A stretch of DNA of 47,079 nucleotides, taken from Candidatus Fermentibacterota bacterium. Lineage in GTDB: Bacteria; JAFGKV01. This document shows, piece by piece, positions 13,297 through 41,450 of this stretch (the first letter of the stretch is position 1; each line of letters opens with the position of its first letter). Under the pieces are notes generated by a model that was not told the DNA's origin, ran no database searches, and saw only the letters and a list, made by a program, of their open reading frames with translations. Made by a program: the position numbers and the translations under genes. The stretch is from positions 1 through 47,079 of the forward strand of contig JAUXFG010000007.1 of assembly GCA_030620115.1 (NCBI GenBank), read 5' to 3'.

Positions 13297-14328
13297 TTGG
13301 AACTCGCTACTGCCCATGTCGTAGGAAAGCTGCTCGATCAAAACGAAACACTCGTCATTGTGTCAGTGCTCGGGCGACAAGGTTCTACCCCTGCTCCGCT
13401 CCATGCTAGCTTGGTGATGCACGAAGACGGTGTGTTCGGCACCGTAGGCGGCGGAACAGTTGAGGCCCAGGCCATTGAGGTCGCCCGCCGGGTGCTCGGC
13501 ACCACGCATCCGGAAATCCATACCATCAGCATGGACGCCCAGGAAGCATCCAATGAAGGGATGCTCTGCGGTGGAGCAATCACCTTCCTATTCGAGCCGC
13601 TGGAGGGTCGCCAGGCCGGATTGTGGCACGCGGCGATCGAAAGCTCGGCCGGAGGAGACACGGGGCTTTTTGTGGTGCGGGTGAATCAGTCAAGCCCTGA
13701 ACTGGAAGTATCGAGGAGCTGGGTGATTGGTCGCGCGGTGACTGATCTCGACGATCTTCGCCGGGATGCAAAAAGGGCTCTCGCCAGCCAAGTCCCCACC
13801 ACGGTAGAGAAGCCCGGTCTCCTTTTCCTGCTCGATCCGGTAATCGTGCCGGATGAATTGCTGGTTTTCGGTGCCGGTCATCTCGCACACGCCCTTGTGC
13901 CACTGGCATCTACGGTGGGATTCAGATGCTGGGTTATTGATGATAGGCCGGACTTCGCATCAAGGGAACGATTCCCAAAAGCCCACAAGATCATGGTGGC
14001 TGATCCGGTGGCCACGGTTCCCAGGCTCCCCACCGGTGATCATGTATGGGCGGTAATCGTCACCAGGGGACACAAGGATGACGCCCGGGTTCTCCGCTGC
14101 CTCCTGAGCAACTCCTACCGATACATTGGTTTGATCGGCTCAGCCCGCAAGAAAGAGATCATCTGGGAAAGCCTCATCAAAGAGGGTACAGACCCGCCCC
14201 TCCTTGATGCAGTTCACTGCCCCATCGGGCTCCCCTTGGGCGGTTCAACGCCGGGAGAGATCGCGCTCTCCATTGCAGCGGAACTCGTCGCCGTCAAACA
14301 CGGATGTCATGCTGTTCTGAAAGAATAG
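13297..14328 (+). CDS. xdhC: XdhC family molybdenum-cofactor insertion protein
   Basis: 343 residues, starting at TTG 13297 behind an excellent ribosome site (AAAGGAGGT, 7 bases away). The N-terminal XdhC_CoxI domain has VSVLGRQGSTPAPLHASLVM and GTVGGGTVEAQAIEVAR. The C-terminal Rossmann domain starts at LLVFGAGHLAHALVPLA and ends with GLIGSARKKEI and PIGLPLGGSTPGEIALSIAAE. XdhC proteins bind and sulfurate molybdenum cofactor for xanthine-dehydrogenase-type hydroxylases. No hydroxylase subunit or MobA is in the window, so the partner must be encoded elsewhere. The presence of a tRNA-Sec gene makes a selenium-dependent hydroxylase thinkable, but that is speculation. Confidence 0.9.
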   Translation: MELATAHVVGKLLDQNETLVIVSVLGRQGSTPAPLHASLVMHEDGVFGTVGGGTVEAQAIEVARRVLGTTHPEIHTISMDAQEASNEGMLCGGAITFLFEPLEGRQAGLWHAAIESSAGGDTGLFVVRVNQSSPELEVSRSWVIGRAVTDLDDLRRDAKRALASQVPTTVEKPGLLFLLDPVIVPDELLVFGAGHLAHALVPLASTVGFRCWVIDDRPDFASRERFPKAHKIMVADPVATVPRLPTGDHVWAVIVTRGHKDDARVLRCLLSNSYRYIGLIGSARKKEIIWESLIKEGTDPPLLDAVHCPIGLPLGGSTPGEIALSIAAELVAVKHGCHAVLKE

Positions 14329-16007: not shown

Positions 16008-18179
16008 CTATCTGCCGCGCCGTGGAGATCGGCTTCGTCCCTGGAACCCTCGATCCCTGCCTCGATTGTCACCGCGTTCCCGGGGAGGTTCTTCTTCTCC
16101 GGCTTCCCGAGGAAGCAAAACCTTCCGACTGAGGTCGATTCGGCCTTGCTCATCGATGCCGATACACTGTACTTCAACTTCATCGCCTTCGTGCAGCACG
16201 TCTTCCACTTTCTCCACACGACGATGCGCAAGCTGTGAGATATGCACCAGACCATCCTGCCCGGGCAGAATCTCAACAAACGCGCCAAAATTGGTGATCC
16301 GCTTCACCTTCCCTTGGTAGGTCTTGCCGATTTCGGCTTCCTGAACAAGACCCTCGATCCACTCACGCGCCTTCCTGCTGCACTCCTGATCCACCGCAGC
16401 TATGATCACTGTACCATCATCCGAGATATCGATCTTGGCCCCTGTCTCTTCCGTTATCTTCCGTATCATCTTGCCGCCGGGACCGATGATATCCCCAATC
16501 CGGCTCGTCTTCACCTTCAGGATAATGATCCGGGGAGCAAATGGGGAAAGATCCTCCCGGGGTTCTGCGATGGCTCCGGCCATGGCATCAAGGATCTTCA
16601 GTCTCGCGGTCCTGGCCTTCTTCAGCGCCTGCGTCATCTCATCGAGACCGATCCCGGAGATCTTGAGATCCATTTGAAAGGCCGTGATCCCTTCTCTGGT
16701 CCCTGCAACCTTGAGGTCCATGTCGCCAAGATGGTCCTCGTCACCCAATATGTCCGTCAAGATCACCGATCCGTCATCACCCTTGATGAGGCCCATGGCG
16801 ATGCCGGCGATACCTGCCCGTATCGGAACTCCCGCATCCATGAGGGCCAGAGATCCTGCACACACAGTCGCCATGGAAGATGATCCATTGGACTCCAGGA
16901 TCTCGGAGACGATCCTGACGGTGTAGGGGAATACCTCCTCATTGGGAATGGCGGGTTCTATCGCCCGTTCCGCCAAAATGCCGTGGCCGATCTCCCGCCT
17001 TCCCGGGCCCCGAATGGGCCGGACTTCCCCCACACTGTACGAGGGGAAATTGTAATGAAGCATATAGCTTTTCCAGCTCTCCCCCTCCAGATCCTCAATC
17101 TTCTGCTCATCCATCTTCGTCCCCAGAGTCACTGTAGTCAGGCTTTGGGTTTGTCCTCGAGTAAAGAGCGCCGACCCATGAGTCCTGGGCAGAACTCCCA
17201 CCTCGCAGGAGAGCTCTCTGATCTCATCGAATCCTCGTCCATCCAACCTCAGTCCCTGGTTCAGAATCCTGTCTCGTACGATCTCCTTCTCTCTGTCATG
17301 GAGCAAAGAGAGAATGTGCTCCTCTGACTCGGGGAACTCCTCTTCCAAGGCGGTGAGGGTCTTTCCCTTTACGTCTTCTAATGCGGCGAGTCGTTCTTCC
17401 TTAGCGGTCAACGTGAGCGCCTTCTGGAGATCCTCTTCGGCCAGACGATTGACCTGGGAGACAAGCTCAGCCGGAAGAGCCGGCGGTACGAATTCCATCT
17501 TCGGCTTTCCTGCCATGGCCACTAGTTCTTCCTGGAGGGCCACGATGGGGCGGATGTGTTCGGCCGCAAAGGCCAATGCTCCCACCATCTGATCTTCACT
17601 GATCTCTTGCGCCCCTCCTTCAACCATCACGATAGCGTCAGCAGATCCAGCCACCACGAGATTCAAGGAACTCCCATCAAGGTCCAAGAAGCGTGGATTC
17701 AGCACGTATTCTCCATCTATCATCCCAACCCTCACCGCGGCAATGGGCCCGTTGAAGGGAATATCGCTGAGGGAGAGCGCTGCCGAGGCTCCGATGAGCC
17801 CCAGCGTATCAGCACTGTTCTCTTGATCTGAGGAAAGCACGGTGCAAAAGACCTGTATCTCCCGTTTGAAGCCCTTCGGGAAAAGCGGTCGGATGGGTCG
17901 ATCCATCTGCCGAGCACTCAGCACTTCCACTTCCTTGGGTCTGCCCTCCCGCTTGAAAAACCCGCCCGGGATCTTGCCCACGGCATAGGCCTTTTCTCTG
18001 TATTCCATGGTGAGAGGAAAAAAGCTCAACCCCTCTCTGTCTTTTTTGGAAGCCACGGCAGTGACAAGTACTACGGTGTCACCGTAACGGACCTGCACCG
18101 CGCCGTTGGCCTGTTTGGCCAGCTTTCCGGTTTCAATGAAGAGCTCTCTACCTCCGAGCTCCATGCTACATCGATGCAT
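16008..18179 (-). CDS. pnp: Polyribonucleotide nucleotidyltransferase
   Basis: 723 residues from ATG 18179, with AGGAG 6 bases upstream overlapping the rpsO stop. There are two RNase PH domains (about 1-240 and 315-545; second core FTRGQTQSLTTVTLGT), then a KH domain with IGPGGKMIRKI (about 560-620) and an S1 domain with KVKRITNFGAFVEILPGQDG (about 625-695). A short Arg/Gly-rich tail (RGRDRGFQGRSRSPRRGR) may bind RNA or partners. It degrades RNA phosphorolytically and acts in the degradosome. Its place directly after rpsO is the classic rpsO-pnp arrangement. Confidence 0.98.
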   Translation of the reverse strand: MHRCSMELGGRELFIETGKLAKQANGAVQVRYGDTVVLVTAVASKKDREGLSFFPLTMEYREKAYAVGKIPGGFFKREGRPKEVEVLSARQMDRPIRPLFPKGFKREIQVFCTVLSSDQENSADTLGLIGASAALSLSDIPFNGPIAAVRVGMIDGEYVLNPRFLDLDGSSLNLVVAGSADAIVMVEGGAQEISEDQMVGALAFAAEHIRPIVALQEELVAMAGKPKMEFVPPALPAELVSQVNRLAEEDLQKALTLTAKEERLAALEDVKGKTLTALEEEFPESEEHILSLLHDREKEIVRDRILNQGLRLDGRGFDEIRELSCEVGVLPRTHGSALFTRGQTQSLTTVTLGTKMDEQKIEDLEGESWKSYMLHYNFPSYSVGEVRPIRGPGRREIGHGILAERAIEPAIPNEEVFPYTVRIVSEILESNGSSSMATVCAGSLALMDAGVPIRAGIAGIAMGLIKGDDGSVILTDILGDEDHLGDMDLKVAGTREGITAFQMDLKISGIGLDEMTQALKKARTARLKILDAMAGAIAEPREDLSPFAPRIIILKVKTSRIGDIIGPGGKMIRKITEETGAKIDISDDGTVIIAAVDQECSRKAREWIEGLVQEAEIGKTYQGKVKRITNFGAFVEILPGQDGLVHISQLAHRRVEKVEDVLHEGDEVEVQCIGIDEQGRIDLSRKVLLPREAGEEEPPRERGDNRGRDRGFQGRSRSPRRGR

Positions 18180-18188
18180 TCTCAACTC

Positions 18189-18458
18189 CTAACGTCTGAG
18201 ACCAAGCTCAGCAATGATTTGTCGATATCGGGTCACATCTTTCCATTTTAGGTAATCCAGGAGCCGACGCCGTCGACCCACCATCTTGATGAGGCCCCTC
18301 CGACTATGATGATCTTTCTTGTGTGTGAGAAGATGTTTCGTGAGATAGCTGATTCGCTCCGTGAGAAGCGCGATCTGTACTTCGGGAGATCCTGAATCAC
18401 TCTCGTGAAGCTGATGTTTTCCAATGATCTCCTGCTTCTTGCCTGCGTTCAGCGGCAT
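18189..18458 (-). CDS. rpsO: 30S ribosomal protein S15
   Basis: 89 residues, exactly the usual size. Conserved segments include [21 protein letters not shown] and the RNA-binding [21 protein letters not shown]. It binds 16S rRNA early in assembly of the small-subunit platform. GGAGG lies 7 bases before the ATG. It is placed between ribF and pnp, the standard order. Confidence 0.98.
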
Positions 18459-18473
18459 TGCACAACCTCCGTT

Positions 18474-19475
18474 TCACCGTACCGGGGAAGGGTCGCTTCT
18501 CCCCGGGGTGCTTCCGTTCTCCAGCTGTCCGGTATCCGCCTTCTCTACCAGATCCCGAACACGACCCGCATCTCTTTCGATCTGTCGACGTAGTTCGCCT
18601 ACGTCGCTGAACTTCATCTCGTCTCGAAGACGAGCCAAAAAATCGATTGATAACGTCTTTCCGTACAAATCTCCCGTCCAATCCACAACATGCGCCTCTA
18701 TCCGTAGATGAGCATCGTGCTGCGGCACTGAGACGGTCGGCGCAAAGCCGATGTTCAACGCCGCCGGGAATGTCTTCCCCTCGATGTGCGCCACCCCTCC
18801 ATACACGCCATTCGCGGGAATTAGCCTCCAAGGAGATGAAGGATCAACATTGGCCGTTGGATAACCGACCAAGTGTCCCCCCGCGCCCCTCCCGGGAACC
18901 ACCACTCCCGAAAGCCGGAACGGCCTTCCTAAGAGAGAAAAGGCCGTTTCAACATGCCCGTGCACAAGGAGATCCCGTATTCTGCGCGAGCTTACGGGTC
19001 TGCCATCCACGAGGACATGCTCTGCAACCTGCGCATGGATGCCCGCAACGTGGGCCAATTCCAGGAGAAGCTCGGGGCCACCACGCCCATCTCGACCGAA
19101 ATGATGCGTCGGGCCCACAACAAGCGCCTTGGCAACAAGCTCCCTCAGAAGGACTGTGTCGAAGAAAGACTCTGGCGACATATCTCGAATCGATTCAGAG
19201 AAATGGAGATAGACAACCCAATCTACCCCCATCTTCCTGAGATAGTACGCACGCTCCTCTTCCGAAAGAAGCAGCCCTCCCTCTCGGGCCACCGCCGCGG
19301 GCCTGGGATGAGGCCTGAAGGTAAGGACAACCGGCGCAAGATCCAATGTACGTGCTACTTCCAGAAGGATCGAGATGATCTTTTGATGCCCCAGATGTAC
19401 GCCATCAAATACGCCAACCGCCACCGCGGCGCCCCTCATTGTTCTTCTCCGGTCCAGGGGCGCAATACGATCCAT
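18474..19475 (-). CDS. ribF: Bifunctional riboflavin kinase / FAD synthetase
   Basis: 333 residues. The N-terminal adenylyltransferase domain has GVFDGVHLGHQKI and later VGPTHHFGRDGRGG and SSRRIRDLLVHG. The C-terminal flavokinase domain has GYPTANVDPS and NGVYGGVAHIEG, then the IEAHVVDWTGDLYGKTLSIDF-like end. It makes FMN and FAD from riboflavin. The start at 19475 overlaps truB by 40 bases and gives the usual spacing before the GxFDGxHxGH motif. An ATG at 19439 forms a neater ATGA overlap but would leave only a very short N-terminus. Confidence 0.95.
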   Translation of the reverse strand: MDRIAPLDRRRTMRGAAVAVGVFDGVHLGHQKIISILLEVARTLDLAPVVLTFRPHPRPAAVAREGGLLLSEEERAYYLRKMGVDWVVYLHFSESIRDMSPESFFDTVLLRELVAKALVVGPTHHFGRDGRGGPELLLELAHVAGIHAQVAEHVLVDGRPVSSRRIRDLLVHGHVETAFSLLGRPFRLSGVVVPGRGAGGHLVGYPTANVDPSSPWRLIPANGVYGGVAHIEGKTFPAALNIGFAPTVSVPQHDAHLRIEAHVVDWTGDLYGKTLSIDFLARLRDEMKFSDVGELRRQIERDAGRVRDLVEKADTGQLENGSTPGRSDPSPVR

Positions 19476-20365
19476 GGTTTTATAATACCCCCGCTCCGTT
19501 TGGCCAGGAGTGTGAGCCGTTCCTCGGAATCGAGCAACTTCACGATCTTTTCCTGTTCATCACTCTCAGAGTCATTCGTTCGGACCGGTACGCCTTTCCT
19601 CAAGAGCAGCAGATCATCCGCTCCTACATTGCTGGTCTCCACCCATGGAAGAGCCTTCTCTCCGGTGAGGATCGAACATCCCACCCTATCTCGATCAAGT
19701 GGATCGAGGTCCACCGCATCCTCCACTCGGAATGGACCAACTGCGGTTCTTTCCAGACGCGCGAGACAGGCGGGAATTCCCAACGCATGACCAAGATCGC
19801 GAGCCCAGCTTCTCACATAGAATCCAGAACTCACGAGAATCCTGAATTCAATCCGTCGATGGGAGACGCCGCGTTCCACATCGGCCTCAAAAAGCTCGAC
19901 CCGTTTCACGGAGACCGGCACATCCTTTCCTAGACGTGTCCATCTATGAAGGGCTTTTCCTTTCCACTTCCTGGCCGAGAATCGTGGCGCCTCCTGATCA
20001 ATGGCGCCTCTCACGGACTTCACCCACTGAGCTGCTGCACCAAGCAGGTCCTGCGGAACATGTGCCCGTGCAACGGTTCGGCCTTGGAGATCCAAGCTAT
20101 CAGTCTCTCTCCCCAGCAACACCGTGCCGCAGTACTCCTTGGGGAGATCAGAAAAGAGCCTCGCCGCCCTCGTCATCCGTCCCAAACAGAGAACGAGGAG
20201 CCCCTCTGCCGCCGGATCGAGTGTGCCCGTATGCCCAACCTTAATCCCATGGATCCGCCTTCTGACCGCGGCTACCACATCATGTGAGGTTGGACCCTTG
20301 GGCTTATTGACAAGCAGAATGCCGCCAAGTTCCAGCGTGTCCCCCCCCGTTCCATCGAGAATCAT
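19436..20365 (-). CDS. truB: tRNA pseudouridine(55) synthase
   Basis: 309 residues. ILLVNKPKGPTSHDVVAAVRR and GHTGTLDPAAEGLLVLCLG carry the conserved TruB motifs, including the catalytic Asp of GTLDP; later motifs are GFYVRSWARDLGHALG. It converts U55 in the T loop of tRNAs. The C-terminal extension (about 240-309) resembles the PUA-like tail of bacterial TruB. Its ATG overlaps the rbfA stop (ATGA). Confidence 0.96.
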   Translation of the reverse strand: MILDGTGGDTLELGGILLVNKPKGPTSHDVVAAVRRRIHGIKVGHTGTLDPAAEGLLVLCLGRMTRAARLFSDLPKEYCGTVLLGRETDSLDLQGRTVARAHVPQDLLGAAAQWVKSVRGAIDQEAPRFSARKWKGKALHRWTRLGKDVPVSVKRVELFEADVERGVSHRRIEFRILVSSGFYVRSWARDLGHALGIPACLARLERTAVGPFRVEDAVDLDPLDRDRVGCSILTGEKALPWVETSNVGADDLLLLRKGVPVRTNDSESDEQEKIVKLLDSEERLTLLAKRSGGIIKPWIVLRPWTGEEQ

Positions 20366-20733
20366 TCAGAACCCTTGGCTTGTTCCTCCTCATGCCATTG
20401 GCGGAGCAGGTTGTCTACCCTCTCTCCCTGCCTCAAGCCCTCATCTTCATAGAACCGAAGCATTGGTATCTGCCGGATTCGCCGGATCCGTTTCGCCAGT
20501 TCCCCGCGAATGAAGGAAGATGCCTGGCGAAGCGTGTTCAATGAGGTCTCCACCTCTTCCTCTGTTCCGAGTTTGGAGACATAAACCGTGGCCACGCTTA
20601 GATCGGCGGAAACCTTGACCGTGGTGATCGAGAGCAAACCCACTCTGGGATCAGACATGCGATGTTCGACGATGTCCGCGATCTCCTTTCGGAAAAGGAC
20701 CCCGAGCCGCGCCTGCCTCCGCTCACCAATCAT
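20362..20733 (-). CDS. rbfA: Ribosome-binding factor A
   Basis: 123 residues from the ATG at 20733, which has AGGAGG 7 bases upstream and overlaps the ylxP stop (ATGA). The frame is open further upstream but that part overlaps ylxP. GERRQARLGVLFRKEIADIV, then DPRVGLLSITTVKVSADLSV and the IPMLRFYEDEGL segment, match RbfA, a KH-type protein for late 30S maturation and cold adaptation. Confidence 0.95.
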   Translation of the reverse strand: MIGERRQARLGVLFRKEIADIVEHRMSDPRVGLLSITTVKVSADLSVATVYVSKLGTEEEVETSLNTLRQASSFIRGELAKRIRRIRQIPMLRFYEDEGLRQGERVDNLLRQWHEEEQAKGSE

Positions 20734-21011
20734 CGCCATTCCTCCTGGATATCGATCACCCACATGCGAGGATCCGAGTCCAGGTGATTCTTCAATTTCT
20801 GGAACAAGGATTCCCCTAGCTTGATGTCCGAGCTCACCAGAGCGATTCCCAAGACAGCCCTTTGCCATTTGTCATGATAGGCTATCTCAGCGACAGATAC
20901 ACCAAACCGATCACGTATCCTCTGTTTGATTCCCTTGATGAGGCCCCGTTTCTGCTTGAGGGAGCGGCATTCGGGGAGATGGAGTTCAACCTCAGCGCAC
21001 AAGACATCCAT
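20730..21011 (-). CDS. ylxP: DUF503 / YlxP family protein
   Basis: 93 residues. ELHLPECRSLKQKRGLIKGI and the FGVSVAEIAYHDKWQRAVLG stretch are the DUF503 signature. The family nearly always sits between infB and rbfA, as here, and is thought to act in ribosome assembly, although its exact role is unsettled. Confidence 0.93.
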   Translation of the reverse strand: MDVLCAEVELHLPECRSLKQKRGLIKGIKQRIRDRFGVSVAEIAYHDKWQRAVLGIALVSSDIKLGESLFQKLKNHLDSDPRMWVIDIQEEWR

Positions 21012-21022
21012 TGGTCAAAAAA

Positions 21023-23191
21023 TCAGTTAAGGGAACGAGCGAATTCCTCTTCCACATAGATCTCAAATACATCACCCTCGTGGATGTCTCCATAGTTGTC
21101 CACCACCACACCACATTCGTACCCACTCTGTACCTCTCTCACATCTTCTTTGAATCGCTTCAGAGATCCGATTCTGGAATCCGTGATAATCACATCGTCC
21201 CTCAACACGCGACATCGCGCACCACGTGTCACGGTTCCACTCAGAACAAAGCACCCGGCAACCGTTCCAGCCTTGGGGTGGTGATAGATCTGCCGAACTG
21301 ATACCCTTCCTACCGTTTTTTCCCGAAGCTCCGGTTCCAGAAGCCCCTCCATGGCCTTCTGCATATCCTCAACACACTCATAGATGACCTGGTAGTGGCG
21401 TATCTCGATCCCTTCTCGCTCAGCGAGCTCCTGGGCCCTCACACTGGGACGCACATGGAAGCTGACGATGATGGCTTGCGATGCGGAAGCCAACAGCACA
21501 TCGGACTCGGTCACTGCACCAACGCCTTGGTGAATGATGTTTACGTGTACCTCTTTGTTCGCGAGCCGGTCCAATGCGTCGCTGAGAGCCTCCACGGATC
21601 CTTGCACATCACCCTTCAGCAGAAGCCTGAGTTCCTTGGCTTCCCCCTCCCGTATGCGCTTGAGAAGATCCTCCAGCGTTGCCTTGGGGGCGGTCCCCAG
21701 ATCCTTGGCGCGCCGCAACTCCGATCGCCGAGCCGCAACATCACGCACCGCTCGCTCACTTGACATAACCTGAAAACTTTCTCCCGCCCGAGGTACCCCC
21801 GAGATGCCGGCCAGTTGGACGGCCTTGGAGGGTGGCGCTTGATCGATTCGCCTTCCAGATTCATCCATTAACGCTCTGGCGCGACCACTATAGCTCCCTG
21901 CGACAAACGCATCTCCAGAATGAAGTGTTCCACTCCGCACAAGCACAGTCGCAACCGGTCCAAAGCCGGGATCAAGCCTCGCCTCCAGCACAACCCCCGA
22001 GGCAGGCCCCGTCCTCACGGCAGTGAGCTCCATCATCTCGGCTTGAAGAAGAATAAGCTCCAACAGCTTGTCGATCCCCTCACCCGTCCGCGCACTTACC
22101 AACGCATCCATCACATCCCCCCCCCACTGCTCAACCATGACCCCATGGGACGAGAGCTGCTGGCGAACCATGTCAGGATTCGAGTCTGGGAGATCGATCT
22201 TGTTGATGGCTACTATGAGTGAAACTCCCGCGTCCTTGGCATGATTGATCGCCTCCACGGTCTGGGGTTTCACTCCTTCATCGGCTGCCACCACCAGCAC
22301 AACGATATCGGTGATTTGGGCGCCGCGGGTCCGCATGGCGGTGAAGGCCTCATGCCCCGGCGTATCTATGAAGGTGATCTTCCCTTCGGGGCTGATGATC
22401 TCATAGGCCCCCATATGCTGGGTGATGCCTCCAGCCTCCCCCGCCACCACATTGGCCTCGCGAATGAAGTCAAGGAGCGATGTCTTGCCATGATCCACGT
22501 GTCCCATGACCGTGACCACAGGAGATCGTGATTCTGGGGTGCCCTCGATGATCTCCTCAATCTCCTGGGTGACCATCTCCCGCTCGACGGTGAAGCCCAG
22601 CTCATCCGAGACAGCTTCCACGGTGTCCATATCCAACCTCTGATTGATGGTCACCATCATTCCGAAATCCATACACACACGGATGACATCGGCAGGGAGC
22701 TTATTCATGAGTTTCGACAGATCCGAGACGGTAATCGAATCATCGGTGAGACGGATCATCGAAGGTTTGGCTTGTATGTGGGAAGTGGATTCTTCGCCGA
22801 GCTTCTGCTTCTTGCGGCGCTTCTTGGATTTCCCCGCTCCATCCATCAGGGCCATGACCTTCTTCACGCTGGCCTGCACCGCACTCGCGTCCCTTGGCCG
22901 CCCTCTCCTCGGCATGCTCTTCTTCATGAACCGTTTTTTGGCCTCCGCTGGTCTTTCTCGGGGTTTCTCTTGTTCTCGTCGCTTGGCCAATTCGATTTCT
23001 TTCCTCGCATACTCTTCTCGAACAGTGGCCTTCTCAGCCTCGAATCGTTTGCGGATACTTGTCTCGGCGGTTTCCTCAATGGTACTCATGTGGCTCTTTG
23101 CCGAGATTCCCATCGCACGGAGCATCTCTATGAGCGCCTCTGATGAGACATTGAACTCCTTGGCAACCTGATGAACCCGCTTCTTAGTCAC
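21023..23191 (-). CDS. infB: Translation initiation factor IF-2
   Basis: 722 residues, starting at GTG. The N-terminal IF2_N segment ([20 protein letters not shown]) is followed by a charged helical linker rich in Lys/Arg (about 60-150), a second IF2_N-like region, then the G domain with [12 protein letters not shown] near residue 230, DTPGHEAF, and NKIDLP. The later parts are the EF-Tu-like domain 2, IF2 domain 3 ([17 protein letters not shown]) and C2 with [10 protein letters not shown]-like motifs. It places initiator tRNA on the 30S subunit. The linker is shorter than in E. coli IF2. Confidence 0.98.
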
Positions 23192-23246: not shown

Positions 23247-24689
23247 TCATGTTGAATCATTCGTATCCGATTCTTCTGTATGCATGGCTTCATCCGCGGA
23301 CTCGGCCTCTTCGGCAGGCTGGTCCACATTACGTGATGTAGCGGAAGGCTCCTCTTGAGGCTCCGCTTCGCCGGCAACGCGTGATGCTGCTTTCGTGGAT
23401 TCCTTCTCCGCCTGTTGTTGCATCCTGAGCCGCACTTCCTCCTCAACCTCTTTCATCATGACCTTCGCCACATCAACCAATTTCTGAGCGCGGAGCTTCC
23501 CTATCCCGGGAACGGCCGTGAGTTCCTTTGTGGCGCTTCGGGCCACATCACGAACCGTCTCGAATCCAGCCATCTCCAGTTCTCTCGCCAGCTTGGGACC
23601 CACACCCGGCAAGCTGACCACCTCGATCTGAATTGTCTGCTCCAAATCCATGTGCTCTTCATGCTGGGTCTTGCTCAGGAGCTCGATTGTCCAACCAGTC
23701 AGCTTGGACGCGAGCCTGACATTCTGGCCACCCTTTCCTATAGCAAGTGAGAGCTGATCTTCGGGCACCACGACACACGCTTTCCGCTCATCCTCCGAAA
23801 GGATGACGCGGTCGATCCTGGCCGGGCTCAACGCACGCGCTATGAACATAGTCGCATCGGAAGTGAATGGTATGATATCCATCCTCTCACCGCCCAGCTC
23901 CCTCACCACGGCCTGGACTCGGATACCCTTCACTCCCACACAGGCCCCAACCGCATCGACACGAGACTCCCGGGAGAAGACGGCGATTTTCGTTCTTATC
24001 CCAGGTTCCCTGGCAATCGCTTCGATCCGTACAATCCCCTCCCGAATCTCCGGGGTTTCCAACGCAAAGAGCGACCGGACAAAATCAGGATGGCCCCGCG
24101 ACAGGATAATCTGTGGGCCATGGGTATTGTTGAGTACTTCAAGAAGCAGGGTCCGGATATTCTCTCCCGGGACATAGCTCTCGCGCCTGATTTGATGTCT
24201 CCAAGGAAGAAGCGCTTCGGTGTTCCCGATCATGACGATGATGTTGCCGCGGTCTACTTGCTGCACATGCCCGCTGATGAGCTGGCCAACTTTGTCCTTG
24301 AACTCATTATAGATCTTCTCTCTTCTCGCCTCGCGAACCTTTTGGAAGATGACTTGTTTGGCAGCTTGCACAGCGTTGCGCCCGAAATCATCAAACGGGA
24401 TCGGAAGATCAACTTTCTCGCCGGCGGCAGTCGAAAAACCGGCCGTTCTTGCATCCTCCACCGAGATCTCCATATCTGGGTCAGTTACCTCTTCCACTAC
24501 CGTCTTGACAAGGGCGATGGAGATATCTCCGGTCTCGGGGTCAACGGTGACATTCACATCCAGGGCATCGGAGAACCGTTTCTTGGTGGCAGATACGAGC
24601 CCCGCCTCCAATGTCTCCAAAAGGACGGCTCGATCGATGTCCTTCTCCCGGGCGATCTGTCCGATGGCCTCGAGAACCTCATAGTTCAT
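23247..24689 (-). CDS. nusA: Transcription elongation factor NusA
   Basis: 480 residues from ATG 24689, behind GGGAGGGG; an in-frame GTG 18 bases upstream lies inside that ribosome site and is unlikely. Domains in order: NusA N-terminal RNA-polymerase-binding domain (MNYEVLEAIGQIAREKDIDR), S1 (about 130-200), KH1 and KH2 (VGACVGVKGIRVQAVVRELG, AIGKGGQNVRLASKLTGW). Then come helix-hairpin-helix repeats (LPGVGPKLARELEMAGFETV, VPGIGKLRAQKLVD) and an acidic Glu/Ser-rich tail. It controls pausing, termination and antitermination. Confidence 0.98.
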   Translation of the reverse strand: MNYEVLEAIGQIAREKDIDRAVLLETLEAGLVSATKKRFSDALDVNVTVDPETGDISIALVKTVVEEVTDPDMEISVEDARTAGFSTAAGEKVDLPIPFDDFGRNAVQAAKQVIFQKVREARREKIYNEFKDKVGQLISGHVQQVDRGNIIVMIGNTEALLPWRHQIRRESYVPGENIRTLLLEVLNNTHGPQIILSRGHPDFVRSLFALETPEIREGIVRIEAIAREPGIRTKIAVFSRESRVDAVGACVGVKGIRVQAVVRELGGERMDIIPFTSDATMFIARALSPARIDRVILSEDERKACVVVPEDQLSLAIGKGGQNVRLASKLTGWTIELLSKTQHEEHMDLEQTIQIEVVSLPGVGPKLARELEMAGFETVRDVARSATKELTAVPGIGKLRAQKLVDVAKVMMKEVEEEVRLRMQQQAEKESTKAASRVAGEAEPQEEPSATSRNVDQPAEEAESADEAMHTEESDTNDST

Positions 24690-24782
24690 AGTCCAAACCC
24701 CTCCCACTGGGACGGCTTGATCGGGGCCAGTCCCCGGATTGCCGTTCCTGTGTTGATGGATGCCTGAATGACTTAATTGGAT

Positions 24783-25247
24783 CTAGTAGGGAAGTCTGAT
24801 CCTCGCGTCAAGAATCCGGTGGTACGGAATGGCCAACGGGGTCTCTTGACCCGTCATGCCCAATATCAGCTCAGTCTCCTCCGCCGCCACAACATCACCT
24901 TCGATCTCTCTCTTCTCGACCGGCTCTTCGCTTTTCTGGTAGCTGACAATGACTCGTCTGCCCCTGATCAGCCGGAAGTCTTTGCGACTCTTGAGTGGCC
25001 TGTCTGTTCCTGGAGAAGATACGTTAAGCGAGAACTGCCTATCTGGTCCATAAAATTCCGCCAATCGACGTCGAAGCTCTTTTGTTGCCTCGACGCATTC
25101 ACCGACAGTGACTCCACCAACCCGGTCAACGAATATGGTGAGCCTTGGTTGCCTCGAAGCACCGCCAACCCGAAGTTGAACCAACTCCAAATCAATGTCG
25201 GAAAGTGCGGCGATAATAATATATTCTATCTCGTTCGTCACATCCAT
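24783..25247 (-). CDS. rimP: Ribosome maturation factor RimP
   Basis: 154 residues from the ATG at 25247 (MDVTNEIEYIIIAALSDI), the normal family start. The frame stays open upstream through the tRNA gene, but that part has no RimP similarity. Conserved features are ELVQLRVGG, LTIFVDRVGGVTVGECVEAT and the SLNVSSPGTDRPLKSRKDF motif. It is needed for 30S maturation. It precedes nusA, as in most bacteria. No strong ribosome site is visible. Confidence 0.93.
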   Translation of the reverse strand: MDVTNEIEYIIIAALSDIDLELVQLRVGGASRQPRLTIFVDRVGGVTVGECVEATKELRRRLAEFYGPDRQFSLNVSSPGTDRPLKSRKDFRLIRGRRVIVSYQKSEEPVEKREIEGDVVAAEETELILGMTGQETPLAIPYHRILDARIRLPY

Positions 25248-25488
25248 CGTATTCCATCCGGGCACAACCAAGCCCAGAGAATCCTCATGTTCTTGCGAAG
25301 CATGTTCGAGATTGATTCGATCCCACAGTATTGGCAAATCAATGTAGTGTCCTGCATTCCCCATGACAAGGGCAACAGCCGCCGTCCTCAATGCGCCATT
25401 CCCACAAAACTCCCGCACGGTATTTCGCCTGGTGGTGATCCATGTGGGCGCACTCTGCGACTTCCCGTCCATGGCTATGGAATCTCGC

Positions 25489-25586
25489 TGGCGGGAACAC
25501 GTGGGAATCGAACCCACCCAGGGCGTCTTTCACACCCCACACTGGGTTTGAAGCCCAGGAGAGCCACCAGGCACCTGTGTGCTCCC
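25489..25586 (-). tRNA. selC: tRNA-Sec (anticodon UCA)
   Basis: Read on the minus strand, the gene has an 8-bp acceptor stem (GGGAGCAC with GTGTTCCC, one G-U pair), a long D arm, an anticodon stem CTGGG/CCCAG with loop CTTCAAA (anticodon TCA at 25551-25549), a long variable arm, and a T arm GTGGG-TTCGATT-CCCAC. Discriminator G and an encoded CCA follow. The 8-bp acceptor, UCA anticodon and large extra arm are hallmarks of selenocysteine tRNA, so the organism should also encode SelA, SelB and SelD. It lies about 240 bases upstream of rimP on the same strand; the space between them holds no gene. Confidence 0.95.
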
Positions 25587-25726
25587 GTTAAAGATCTGAA
25601 GAAACTCGTCCGAACGCCTCTCACCGTCAAGAGCAACCTCGCAATTCGCATTGCCATTCCAATGGCAGCTATCAGCTGTCCTCCTCTCATTCGATGTTCG
25701 ATGTTCATTCCCCCTCCTCCCCACCC

Positions 25727-25888
25727 AGATTCTTCGGTCGCTCCGCTCCCTCAGAATGACACGCATTCACGCACCCACTTAGGCACTACCCCTGTCATTC
25801 TGAGCGACTCCTGGGAGCGAAGAATCTCTCCTTGCTCCATCATCTCAACGCTGACCGCTCTCTTCTTCCCATTCCCCCATTCTCATTC
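25727..25888. repeat. Palindromic repeat family A, copy 2
   Basis: Left arm GATTCTTCGGTCGCTCCGC...CTCAGAATGAC (25728-25761) and right arm GTCATTCTGAGCGACTCCTG followed by GGAGCGAAGAATC (25794-25827) are inverted partners around ACGCACCCACTTAGGCACTA, which is also seen at the window's left edge. The tail with CTCTCTTCTTCCC matches the other copies. It fills the gap between selC and the SGNH gene. Confidence 0.85.
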
Positions 25889-26995
25889 TCATCGATGTTC
25901 ACATAACACACCGATAAGCCACTCCTGCAATATCCTGGCTACGAGACGATGACCCCGTTCTGTGAAATGACACTGATCGATATACAAAGCCTCATATCCC
26001 TGCAATGCAGGCATTGGATCCAGAAAGGGGAGATTATTTGCGACACAGATCTCGCGAAGATTTTCCTGCGGGCTCGTCAATTCCACGGAAGTCTCGATCT
26101 GTACCTGCATCGGTAGATACATGACCAGAAGCGCGGCATCCAGCTCGGCACAGAGCTCCTTGATCCTGGCCAGCTCCTTGCCCACCACCGCCCATCCATC
26201 CTCGAACCAAACCGCACCCCAATCGTATTTCGCCATCTCAATAAGCTCTCTGAGCTCCTCGGCACTATTTTTCCACTTCCCCAACTTCCACGGCTCGACC
26301 CAAGCAAACCGTGCCGCGATCGGAGAATGGTACAGATGCAGCTTGGTGAGAAGCAATCGATACCTGAAGTGCAGAAATCGGGCCACATAGCACTTGGCTA
26401 CTGGACCAGGGTGGGTACGGAACCATCTATCCACATGATCCTCTCGAAGGAATTCGCCGTCGAATCCCACGGGGGGTCTGGAGTCATTTGCATAGAAGGC
26501 GATGAGCACTGCGTCGGGACAAACCAGGCTTCCTTTTTCCTCGAGTATCATCCTCTGTTCTTTGATTCCAATATCTTCCACACTTGCATTGACCACCTCC
26601 CAAGGCGGAGTTGTCTGCTTCAGTACTGAGTCTGTCAGCGCCGGGAAGATCTTGCCTTCTTCAACGCCGTAGCCGAATGCCACGGAATCGCCAAGAATAA
26701 GCAGGCGCCGAACTGCCCGGTGCGGTCCTGTTTGGATCTCCGGACCCCTGAATCCAAGGCTGTTCACCCGTACTCTCACGGGCTGAGTTGTGCTTTCGAA
26801 ACAATAGAGCACATCAGAACCAGGGATGAGCCGGCTTCCTCTCTCCGTGTTGATGCGATAGGGAGCGGGAGTCAGCTTCGTGGGATTCGAAGTTCCCCGG
26901 TGACGTATTCTGAGCACCACTTCCAGCGAGAGAAAACACAGGACCAGGCTGATGACCGCGAGCATCAGGTCTATTTTCCTTGATCCGGTTCTCAC
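25889..26995 (-). CDS. Membrane-anchored SGNH/GDSL hydrolase
   Basis: 368 residues from GTG 26995, which follows AAAGGA and avoids overlap with the divergent PHP gene; longer starts up to 27049 are possible. An N-terminal membrane helix (LMLAVISLVLCFLSLEVVL) is followed by the SGNH block I motif LLILGDSVAFGYGVE with the catalytic Ser. Block V is near the end as DQCHFTERGH, giving Asp and His. AFYANDS carries an Asn like block III. It is probably an extracytoplasmic esterase or acyl/acetyl hydrolase, perhaps acting on glycans; the substrate is unknown. Confidence 0.82.
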   Translation of the reverse strand: MRTGSRKIDLMLAVISLVLCFLSLEVVLRIRHRGTSNPTKLTPAPYRINTERGSRLIPGSDVLYCFESTTQPVRVRVNSLGFRGPEIQTGPHRAVRRLLILGDSVAFGYGVEEGKIFPALTDSVLKQTTPPWEVVNASVEDIGIKEQRMILEEKGSLVCPDAVLIAFYANDSRPPVGFDGEFLREDHVDRWFRTHPGPVAKCYVARFLHFRYRLLLTKLHLYHSPIAARFAWVEPWKLGKWKNSAEELRELIEMAKYDWGAVWFEDGWAVVGKELARIKELCAELDAALLVMYLPMQVQIETSVELTSPQENLREICVANNLPFLDPMPALQGYEALYIDQCHFTERGHRLVARILQEWLIGVLCEHR

Positions 26996-27022
26996 ACCAT
27001 ATCCTTTGCGTGGAGCCCATTC

Positions 27023-27883
27023 ATGCCTCTGGCTGACTGCCATCTTCACACCGAGCTATCGGGAGATTCCCGGCTTCATTTGGAATGGCTGCTTCCCAGA
27101 GCAGCAGGCATGGGCCTGGAAGCGGTCTGCCCCGCCGAGCATTACGATCCCGATCCTACTCATCCATGGATGGCGAAGTATTCATACACTGAAGCAGTGA
27201 TAAGGCATCAAAGGCTTCAGAAGCGATTCCCTCAAATCCAGCTAGGCTTGGGAGTCGAGATAAGCTACAGACTCGGGTATGAGGAGCAAATAGCTCGTTT
27301 CCTGGCTACTCGCAAATTCGATGTGGTGATAGGCTCAGTGCATGACATCGGGAGATTATTTCTGAAGGAATGGCTTGCACAGCCCAAGACGCAACAGCTC
27401 CCCATGGAAGAACGATTTCAGCAGTACTTCGACCTGTTGAATCTTGCCGCCAGGTCTGGTCTCTTTCCTATTCTCGGACATGTCGACTACATCAAGAAAT
27501 ATGCGCCAGACGCATCCTCCCTCAGTCTCCTTGGCCATTACGGTGATATCTTGGCGGAGATATTTGTTCATCAGCTCGAACACGGCGGGATCATAGAGAT
27601 CAATATCGGGGGTCTACGCTATGCATGTGAAGAAACATATCCATCACGTGAGATACTGGGGCTTTACAAGGATATGGGAGGGACCGTAGTAACGCTGGGC
27701 AGCGACGCTCATGCCCCGGAAGATCTACGGATCCCCCTCTCCCTGGGTGCCAAGCTTGCCGAAGAAGTCGGGCTTGTTCCTATTCATTGGGATGAACTCG
27801 CTAGCCGGGCTTCTCACCGGCTTTCGAAGCGAAACGGCCGAGATGGTTCTGAATGCGAGATGAGAGATGCAGGCCGGGCTTGA
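27023..27883 (+). CDS. PHP-domain histidinol-phosphatase-like hydrolase
   Basis: 286 residues. DCHLHTELSGD starts the PHP domain (metal motif HxH), followed by CPAEHYD, GVEISYR, IGSVHDIG, ILGHVDYIKK, IEINIGGLR and GSDAHAPEDLR, matching the metal ligands of HisK/HisJ-type phosphatases. It would hydrolyse a phosphomonoester, most simply histidinol phosphate; no other his genes are nearby. GGAG lies 7 bases before the ATG. The last 26 residues or so (from ASRASHRLSKRNGRDG) are encoded by a degraded MITE-like element, so the native end has been replaced. Confidence 0.87.
   Translation: MPLADCHLHTELSGDSRLHLEWLLPRAAGMGLEAVCPAEHYDPDPTHPWMAKYSYTEAVIRHQRLQKRFPQIQLGLGVEISYRLGYEEQIARFLATRKFDVVIGSVHDIGRLFLKEWLAQPKTQQLPMEERFQQYFDLLNLAARSGLFPILGHVDYIKKYAPDASSLSLLGHYGDILAEIFVHQLEHGGIIEINIGGLRYACEETYPSREILGLYKDMGGTVVTLGSDAHAPEDLRIPLSLGAKLAEEVGLVPIHWDELASRASHRLSKRNGRDGSECEMRDAGRA
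27802..27883. mobile_element. MITE-like element, degraded copy inside the PHP gene end
   Basis: TAGCCGGGCTTCTCACCGGC at 27802 and the following AAGCGAAACGGCCGAGATGG and TTCTGAATGCGAG match the left part of the copy at 14533. The right inverted end (GGTGAGAAG) is missing. The TAG is out of frame with the gene, so translation runs on through the element to TGA at 27881. Confidence 0.75.
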
Positions 27884-41251: not shown

Positions 41252-41450
41252 AGATTCTTCAGTCGCGCCGCTCCCTCAGAATGACACATGAACTCACATC
41301 CTTCCGTACACTACCCCTGTCATTCTGAGTGACTGCAGGGAGCGAAGAATCTCTCTTCACTTCTTGCTCCGTCATCTGAACGCTGAACGCTCTTTTCTTC
41401 TGCGGCCCCCACTCCATCATCTGAACGCTGAACGCTCTTTCTTCCCATTC
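41252..41450. repeat. Palindromic repeat family A, copy 3
   Basis: Left arm AGATTCTTCAGTCGCGCCGC...CAGAATGAC (41252-41285) and right arm GTCATTCTGAGTGACTGCAG...GCGAAGAATC (41319-41351) are inverted partners. A TCTGCGGCCCCCACTCCATC unit matches the tandem unit at 103-165, and AACGCTGAACGCTC occurs twice. Confidence 0.85.

Follow-up and report, generated by a model that had tools for sequence, protein, structure and literature searches.

A selenocysteine tRNA gene upstream of rimP-nusA-infB: a probable metY-like operon head in three genomes of one bacterial family

The position of a selenocysteine tRNA gene (selC) just before the rimP-nusA-infB genes raises the question of whether this tRNA and the translation factors are made from one transcript, and of what such a layout would mean for the supply of tRNA-Sec. 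tRNA genes are found at the head of protein operons, where tRNA and mRNA lie on a presumed single transcript from which the tRNA is removed by processing. The present locus resembles such operons in its presumed shared transcript, and is marked by its pairing of a Sec tRNA with rimP-nusA-infB. Within the window analysed here, which is the whole 47,079-nucleotide stretch of a Candidatus Fermentibacterota genome, the gene order on one strand is selC-rimP-nusA-infB-rbfA-truB-ribF-rpsO-pnp (Table 1). The original prediction had selC about 240 bases before rimP on the same strand; its interval, 24783-25586, does cover rimP and selC, and the spacer to the rimP ATG is indeed 241 nt. Its comparison with E. 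coli, where the initiator tRNA gene metY was said to stand at the same place, is borne out by K-12 MG1655, in which metY lies 206 nt upstream of rimP. Taking the evidence below together, we consider it probable that selC encodes a working tRNA-Sec and that it is the first gene of a rimP-nusA-infB transcription unit with a metY-like layout.

Table 1. Features of the selC-rimP region in window coordinates.
Feature	Position	Strand	Basis
GDSL-like hydrolase gene	25889..27049	-	Pfam Lipase_GDSL_2 just under cut-off
Promoter-like region (provisional)	25602..25630	-	TTGACG (-35-like), 17 nt, GAGTTT (poor -10)
selC, tRNA-Sec(UCA)	25489..25586	-	ARAGORN; RF01852 75.2 bits; identity to relatives
selC-rimP spacer, 241 nt	25248..25488	-	no terminator-like site; one sigma70-like site
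rimP, 154 aa, ATG start	24783..25247	-	Pfam RimP_N 5e-08, DUF150_C; start aligned in relatives
nusA	23247..24707	-	Pfam NusA_N, KH_5, others; 64% identical to relative
infB (IF2)	21023..23191	-	Pfam IF-2, IF2_N, GTP_EFTU
rbfA	20362..20868	-	Pfam RBFA 1.4e-29
truB	19436..20365	-	Pfam TruB_N
ribF (FAD synthetase/riboflavin kinase)	18474..19475	-	Pfam FAD_syn, Flavokinase
rpsO (S15)	18189..18458	-	Pfam Ribosomal_S15 1.5e-37
pnp (PNPase)	16008..18185	-	Pfam RNase_PH, PNPase, KH, S1

The extent of the spacer depends on the start assigned to rimP, whose reading frame is open upstream into selC and gives a longest ORF of 24783-25517. This ORF is not the rimP gene because the start shared with the relatives is the ATG at 25247, and the idea that RimP might reach N-terminally into the spacer was accordingly rejected. 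Comparison with a relative also places the conserved start of nusA, apparently, at an ATG six codons inside the ORF listed in Table 1.

In the window, tRNA-SeC(tca) is the sole tRNA gene that ARAGORN calls, and Rfam families other than tRNA-Sec gave no match there. The gene is 98 nt long, with a UCA anticodon, an 8-bp acceptor stem and a genomically encoded CCA, and it agrees with the genes of two phylum relatives at 87-88 of 98 positions. Against Rfam RF01852 it scores well above the gathering score of 47 (E 9.5e-14), with the match running over model positions 1-91 of 91. One could suppose that the call is a decayed or mis-called serine or leucine tRNA, or that the genome makes no use of Sec, and long-variable-arm tRNAs elsewhere in the genome do match RF01852 weakly. 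These reach at most 45 bits, however, and selC alone exceeds the cut-off across the entire genome (4.1 Mb, 98% complete). The Sec machinery is likewise complete: the search of the genome for selA, selB and selD that the original prediction had proposed returns selA (C79, 556 bits), selB (C141, 331 bits) and two selD genes (C33 and C293, 403 and 362 bits), all over the NCBIfam cut-offs and with the expected Pfam domains. Because all of them are present, the objection that the genome might lack these genes falls away. The proposed search for selenoprotein genes with a hairpin was also fruitful, since the C293 selD gene (L079) carries an in-frame TGA (...TTAAG-U-AAKMGPEAL...) at what we take to be the active-site position, followed directly by 60 nt for which fold energy predicts a strong hairpin (-31.5 kcal/mol). 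This selD is the sole selenoprotein gene found in this genome, in which no Sec peroxiredoxin was found and no Sec formate dehydrogenase, only a 1303-aa molybdopterin-family frame without a TGA. Among the relatives, an in-frame TGA is present in the formate dehydrogenase (FdhA) gene of two and in the peroxiredoxin gene of one. The selC score, the UCA anticodon, the encoded CCA, the Sec machinery and the TGA-containing genes together refute the reading as a mis-called or decayed tRNA or a Sec-less genome, to which we assign a negligible probability. The other selD gene (C33; L078:7569-9788, minus) is of the Cys type and forms a fusion with a NifS-like cysteine desulfurase; such NifS-SelD fusions are rare but known (PMC4561486). 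A gene of the XdhC/CoxI family (molybdenum hydroxylase maturation) also lies in the window at 13297-14328, on the plus strand.

Whether relatives keep selC at this place was a further point raised by the original prediction, and both of the other phylum genomes examined do so. The phylum comparison comprises three genomes, namely this one (G000) together with G001 and G002, which share a single genus different from that of this genome and belong to the same family. The order GDSL gene-selC-rimP-nusA is kept in G001 and G002, with selC-rimP spacers of 167 and 173 nt. Identity to this genome is ~64% for NusA and ~46% for RimP, and the GDSL-like gene has an orthologue at the same place in both relatives, 46% identical to each. 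Beyond the phylum the picture differs. A profile for RimP, made from 16 loci, matches at all three in-group selC loci and, in the fetched flanks, at none of 117 tRNA-Sec loci of other phyla, a set that covers few phyla and draws 105 of its loci from one of them. At least 800 bases of downstream sequence were available for 113 of the 120 selC loci (the 117 plus the three in-group ones). The profile is sensitive enough, because an earlier version of it matched known rimP loci, the E. coli region and the Pelobacter MAG loci; both versions gave the same result on the selC loci. Since rimP is near none of the 117 outside selC loci, the gene order seems to be confined to this lineage. This selC is thus like other bacterial selC genes in belonging to RF01852 and in being encoded with the rest of a selA/selB/selD system, and unlike the 117 surveyed in other phyla in having rimP downstream. 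In the distant Pelobacter MAGs no tRNA was found beside nusA. A different tRNA gene, tRNA-Arg(CCT), precedes rimP at a distance of ~0.7-1.2 kb and in the same orientation in two genomes from other phyla (L057:250-327 and L066:2663-2738). A tRNA-headed rimP-nusA-infB operon is known as such; the open-access literature, to which our search was limited, gave no example with tRNA-Sec and no paper that described selC beside rimP.

The DNA upstream of selC is poorly conserved among the three genomes outside one short element, a TTGAC(C/G) box that is present in all three, with its first base at -44 here and at -37 in G001 and G002. By base composition, the chance that all three genomes carry TTGAC inside a 20-nt range is ~3e-6, a value to be read with the box having been picked after viewing the alignment and with G001 and G002 sharing a genus. 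Coding constraint does not explain the box, because it falls in differing reading phases in the upstream ORFs of G001 and G002 and is non-coding in this genome. A sigma-54-type reading was rejected by eye, the GG...GC spacing being unfit. The box fits a -35 element from which transcription would begin near the 5' end of the tRNA, although this is suggestive only: the -10 hexamers of the three genomes (GAGTTT, CTCTTT and CAGTTT) are poor, and the site in this genome is provisional because its -10 hexamer does not match the consensus.

From the arrangement of these elements we infer promoter activity, read-through and processing at the selC-rimP locus. Transcripts would arise from a promoter just upstream of selC and begin near the first base of the tRNA, the usual tRNA-processing nucleases would excise tRNA-Sec, and part of the transcription would continue across the spacer (170-240 nt) and reach rimP-nusA-infB. 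In the simplest view, a growth-linked housekeeping transcript would carry selC. The sequence is compatible with such co-transcription, which we judge to be fairly likely: the promoter-like box before selC is conserved, and a scan that detects terminators of the hairpin-plus-T-run type only finds no such site in the selC-rimP spacer of this genome, G001 or G002. The E. coli metY operon provides the closest parallel. There, as here, a single tRNA gene heads rimP-nusA-infB-rbfA on the same strand, across a spacer whose length in K-12 falls within the 167-241 nt seen in the three genomes of this phylum, and the promoters before the E. coli tRNA may have a counterpart in the promoter-like box. In E. 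coli the promoters P-1 and P0 before metY, P2 at the 3' side of metY and the terminators t1/t2 upstream of rimP are mapped, and the metY-rimP linkage is leaky (PMC6511841), whereas the present locus is described from sequence only, with no terminator-like site seen. The tRNA here is tRNA-Sec and not the initiator tRNA-fMet, and we therefore regard the locus as a variant layout and not as a metY operon proper.

The same parallel lends substance to the alternative that selC and the rimP operon are neighbouring but separate units, each with its own promoter, since in E. coli t1/t2 and P2 lie between metY and rimP (PMC6511841). The selC transcript would then end soon after the tRNA at a T-run-less, Rho-dependent or processed end, rimP would be served by a promoter in the spacer, and the synteny would persist through common ancestry in a small lineage. 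The poor -10 hexamers and the small sample of three genomes weigh against a joint unit, and several features speak for separate ones. The spacers leave room for a second promoter; in G002 selC is followed within ~50 nt by a strong hairpin, lacking a T-run and not evident in the other two genomes, which could be a processing, pausing or termination site; and the spacer of this genome holds a sigma70-like site (TTGTCA-17-TACATT, 25369-25341) that could, in this genome alone, drive rimP separately. Against this, terminator-like sites are absent from all three genomes, the sigma70-like site was not found in G001 or G002, no promoter-like site in the spacer is conserved, and sigma70-like sites occur in the region at close to the chance number (2 found against 0.8 expected). 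We consider two separate units a possible but rather unlikely arrangement. Co-transcription from a promoter before selC could also be the visible part of a selected regulatory coupling, in which the supply of tRNA-Sec is matched to translation capacity, either through autoregulation by NusA or through growth control of the operon. The arrangement is kept across genera whose proteins are 45-65% identical, and E. coli NusA controls the operon that encodes it (PMC6511841), both of which would suit such a coupling. No regulatory element was seen at the locus, however; shuffled sequences fold as stably as the spacer does (z 0.49), on which ground a special RNA structure in the spacer was rejected, and the case comprises three genomes of one family, with the arrangement shared by none of the 117 other selC loci. 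Selected coupling therefore appears improbable to us. The chances are equally slim for its fullest form, in which the phylum's tRNA-Sec supply would be set by the rimP-nusA-infB promoter and NusA feedback, and UGA recoding capacity would track the production of ribosomes and initiation factors as a selected circuit. The suggestion made at the outset, that co-transcription regulates Sec-tRNA supply together with the translation factors, is speculation. A shared transcript would not by itself mean strict coupling, because the metY-rimP linkage in E. coli is complex (PMC6511841).

As it stands, the observation is one of conserved gene order in a small lineage, and would be mildly surprising at most to a specialist. 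If selC and rimP-nusA-infB are co-transcribed, the locus would add an independent example of a tRNA-headed operon of this kind, with a rare, specialised tRNA replacing the initiator tRNA. It would then suggest that this operon head favours tRNA genes for reasons of transcription or processing and not of tRNA identity, and would allow the idea that Sec-tRNA supply can follow growth-linked expression to be tested in a natural setting.

Further upstream, the ~300-nt stretch between the GDSL-like gene and selC is absent from both relatives, and in this genome it contains one pair of a dispersed repeat. Imperfect copies of this repeat, GTCATTCTGAG...GAAGAATCT, occur in the window at 25727-25760, 25794-25827, 30-63, 41252-41285 and 41319-41352, and form opposing pairs at two sites. 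The regions read of the two relatives contain no copies of the GTCATTCTGAG core, and in this genome copies of the core are also present on other contigs.
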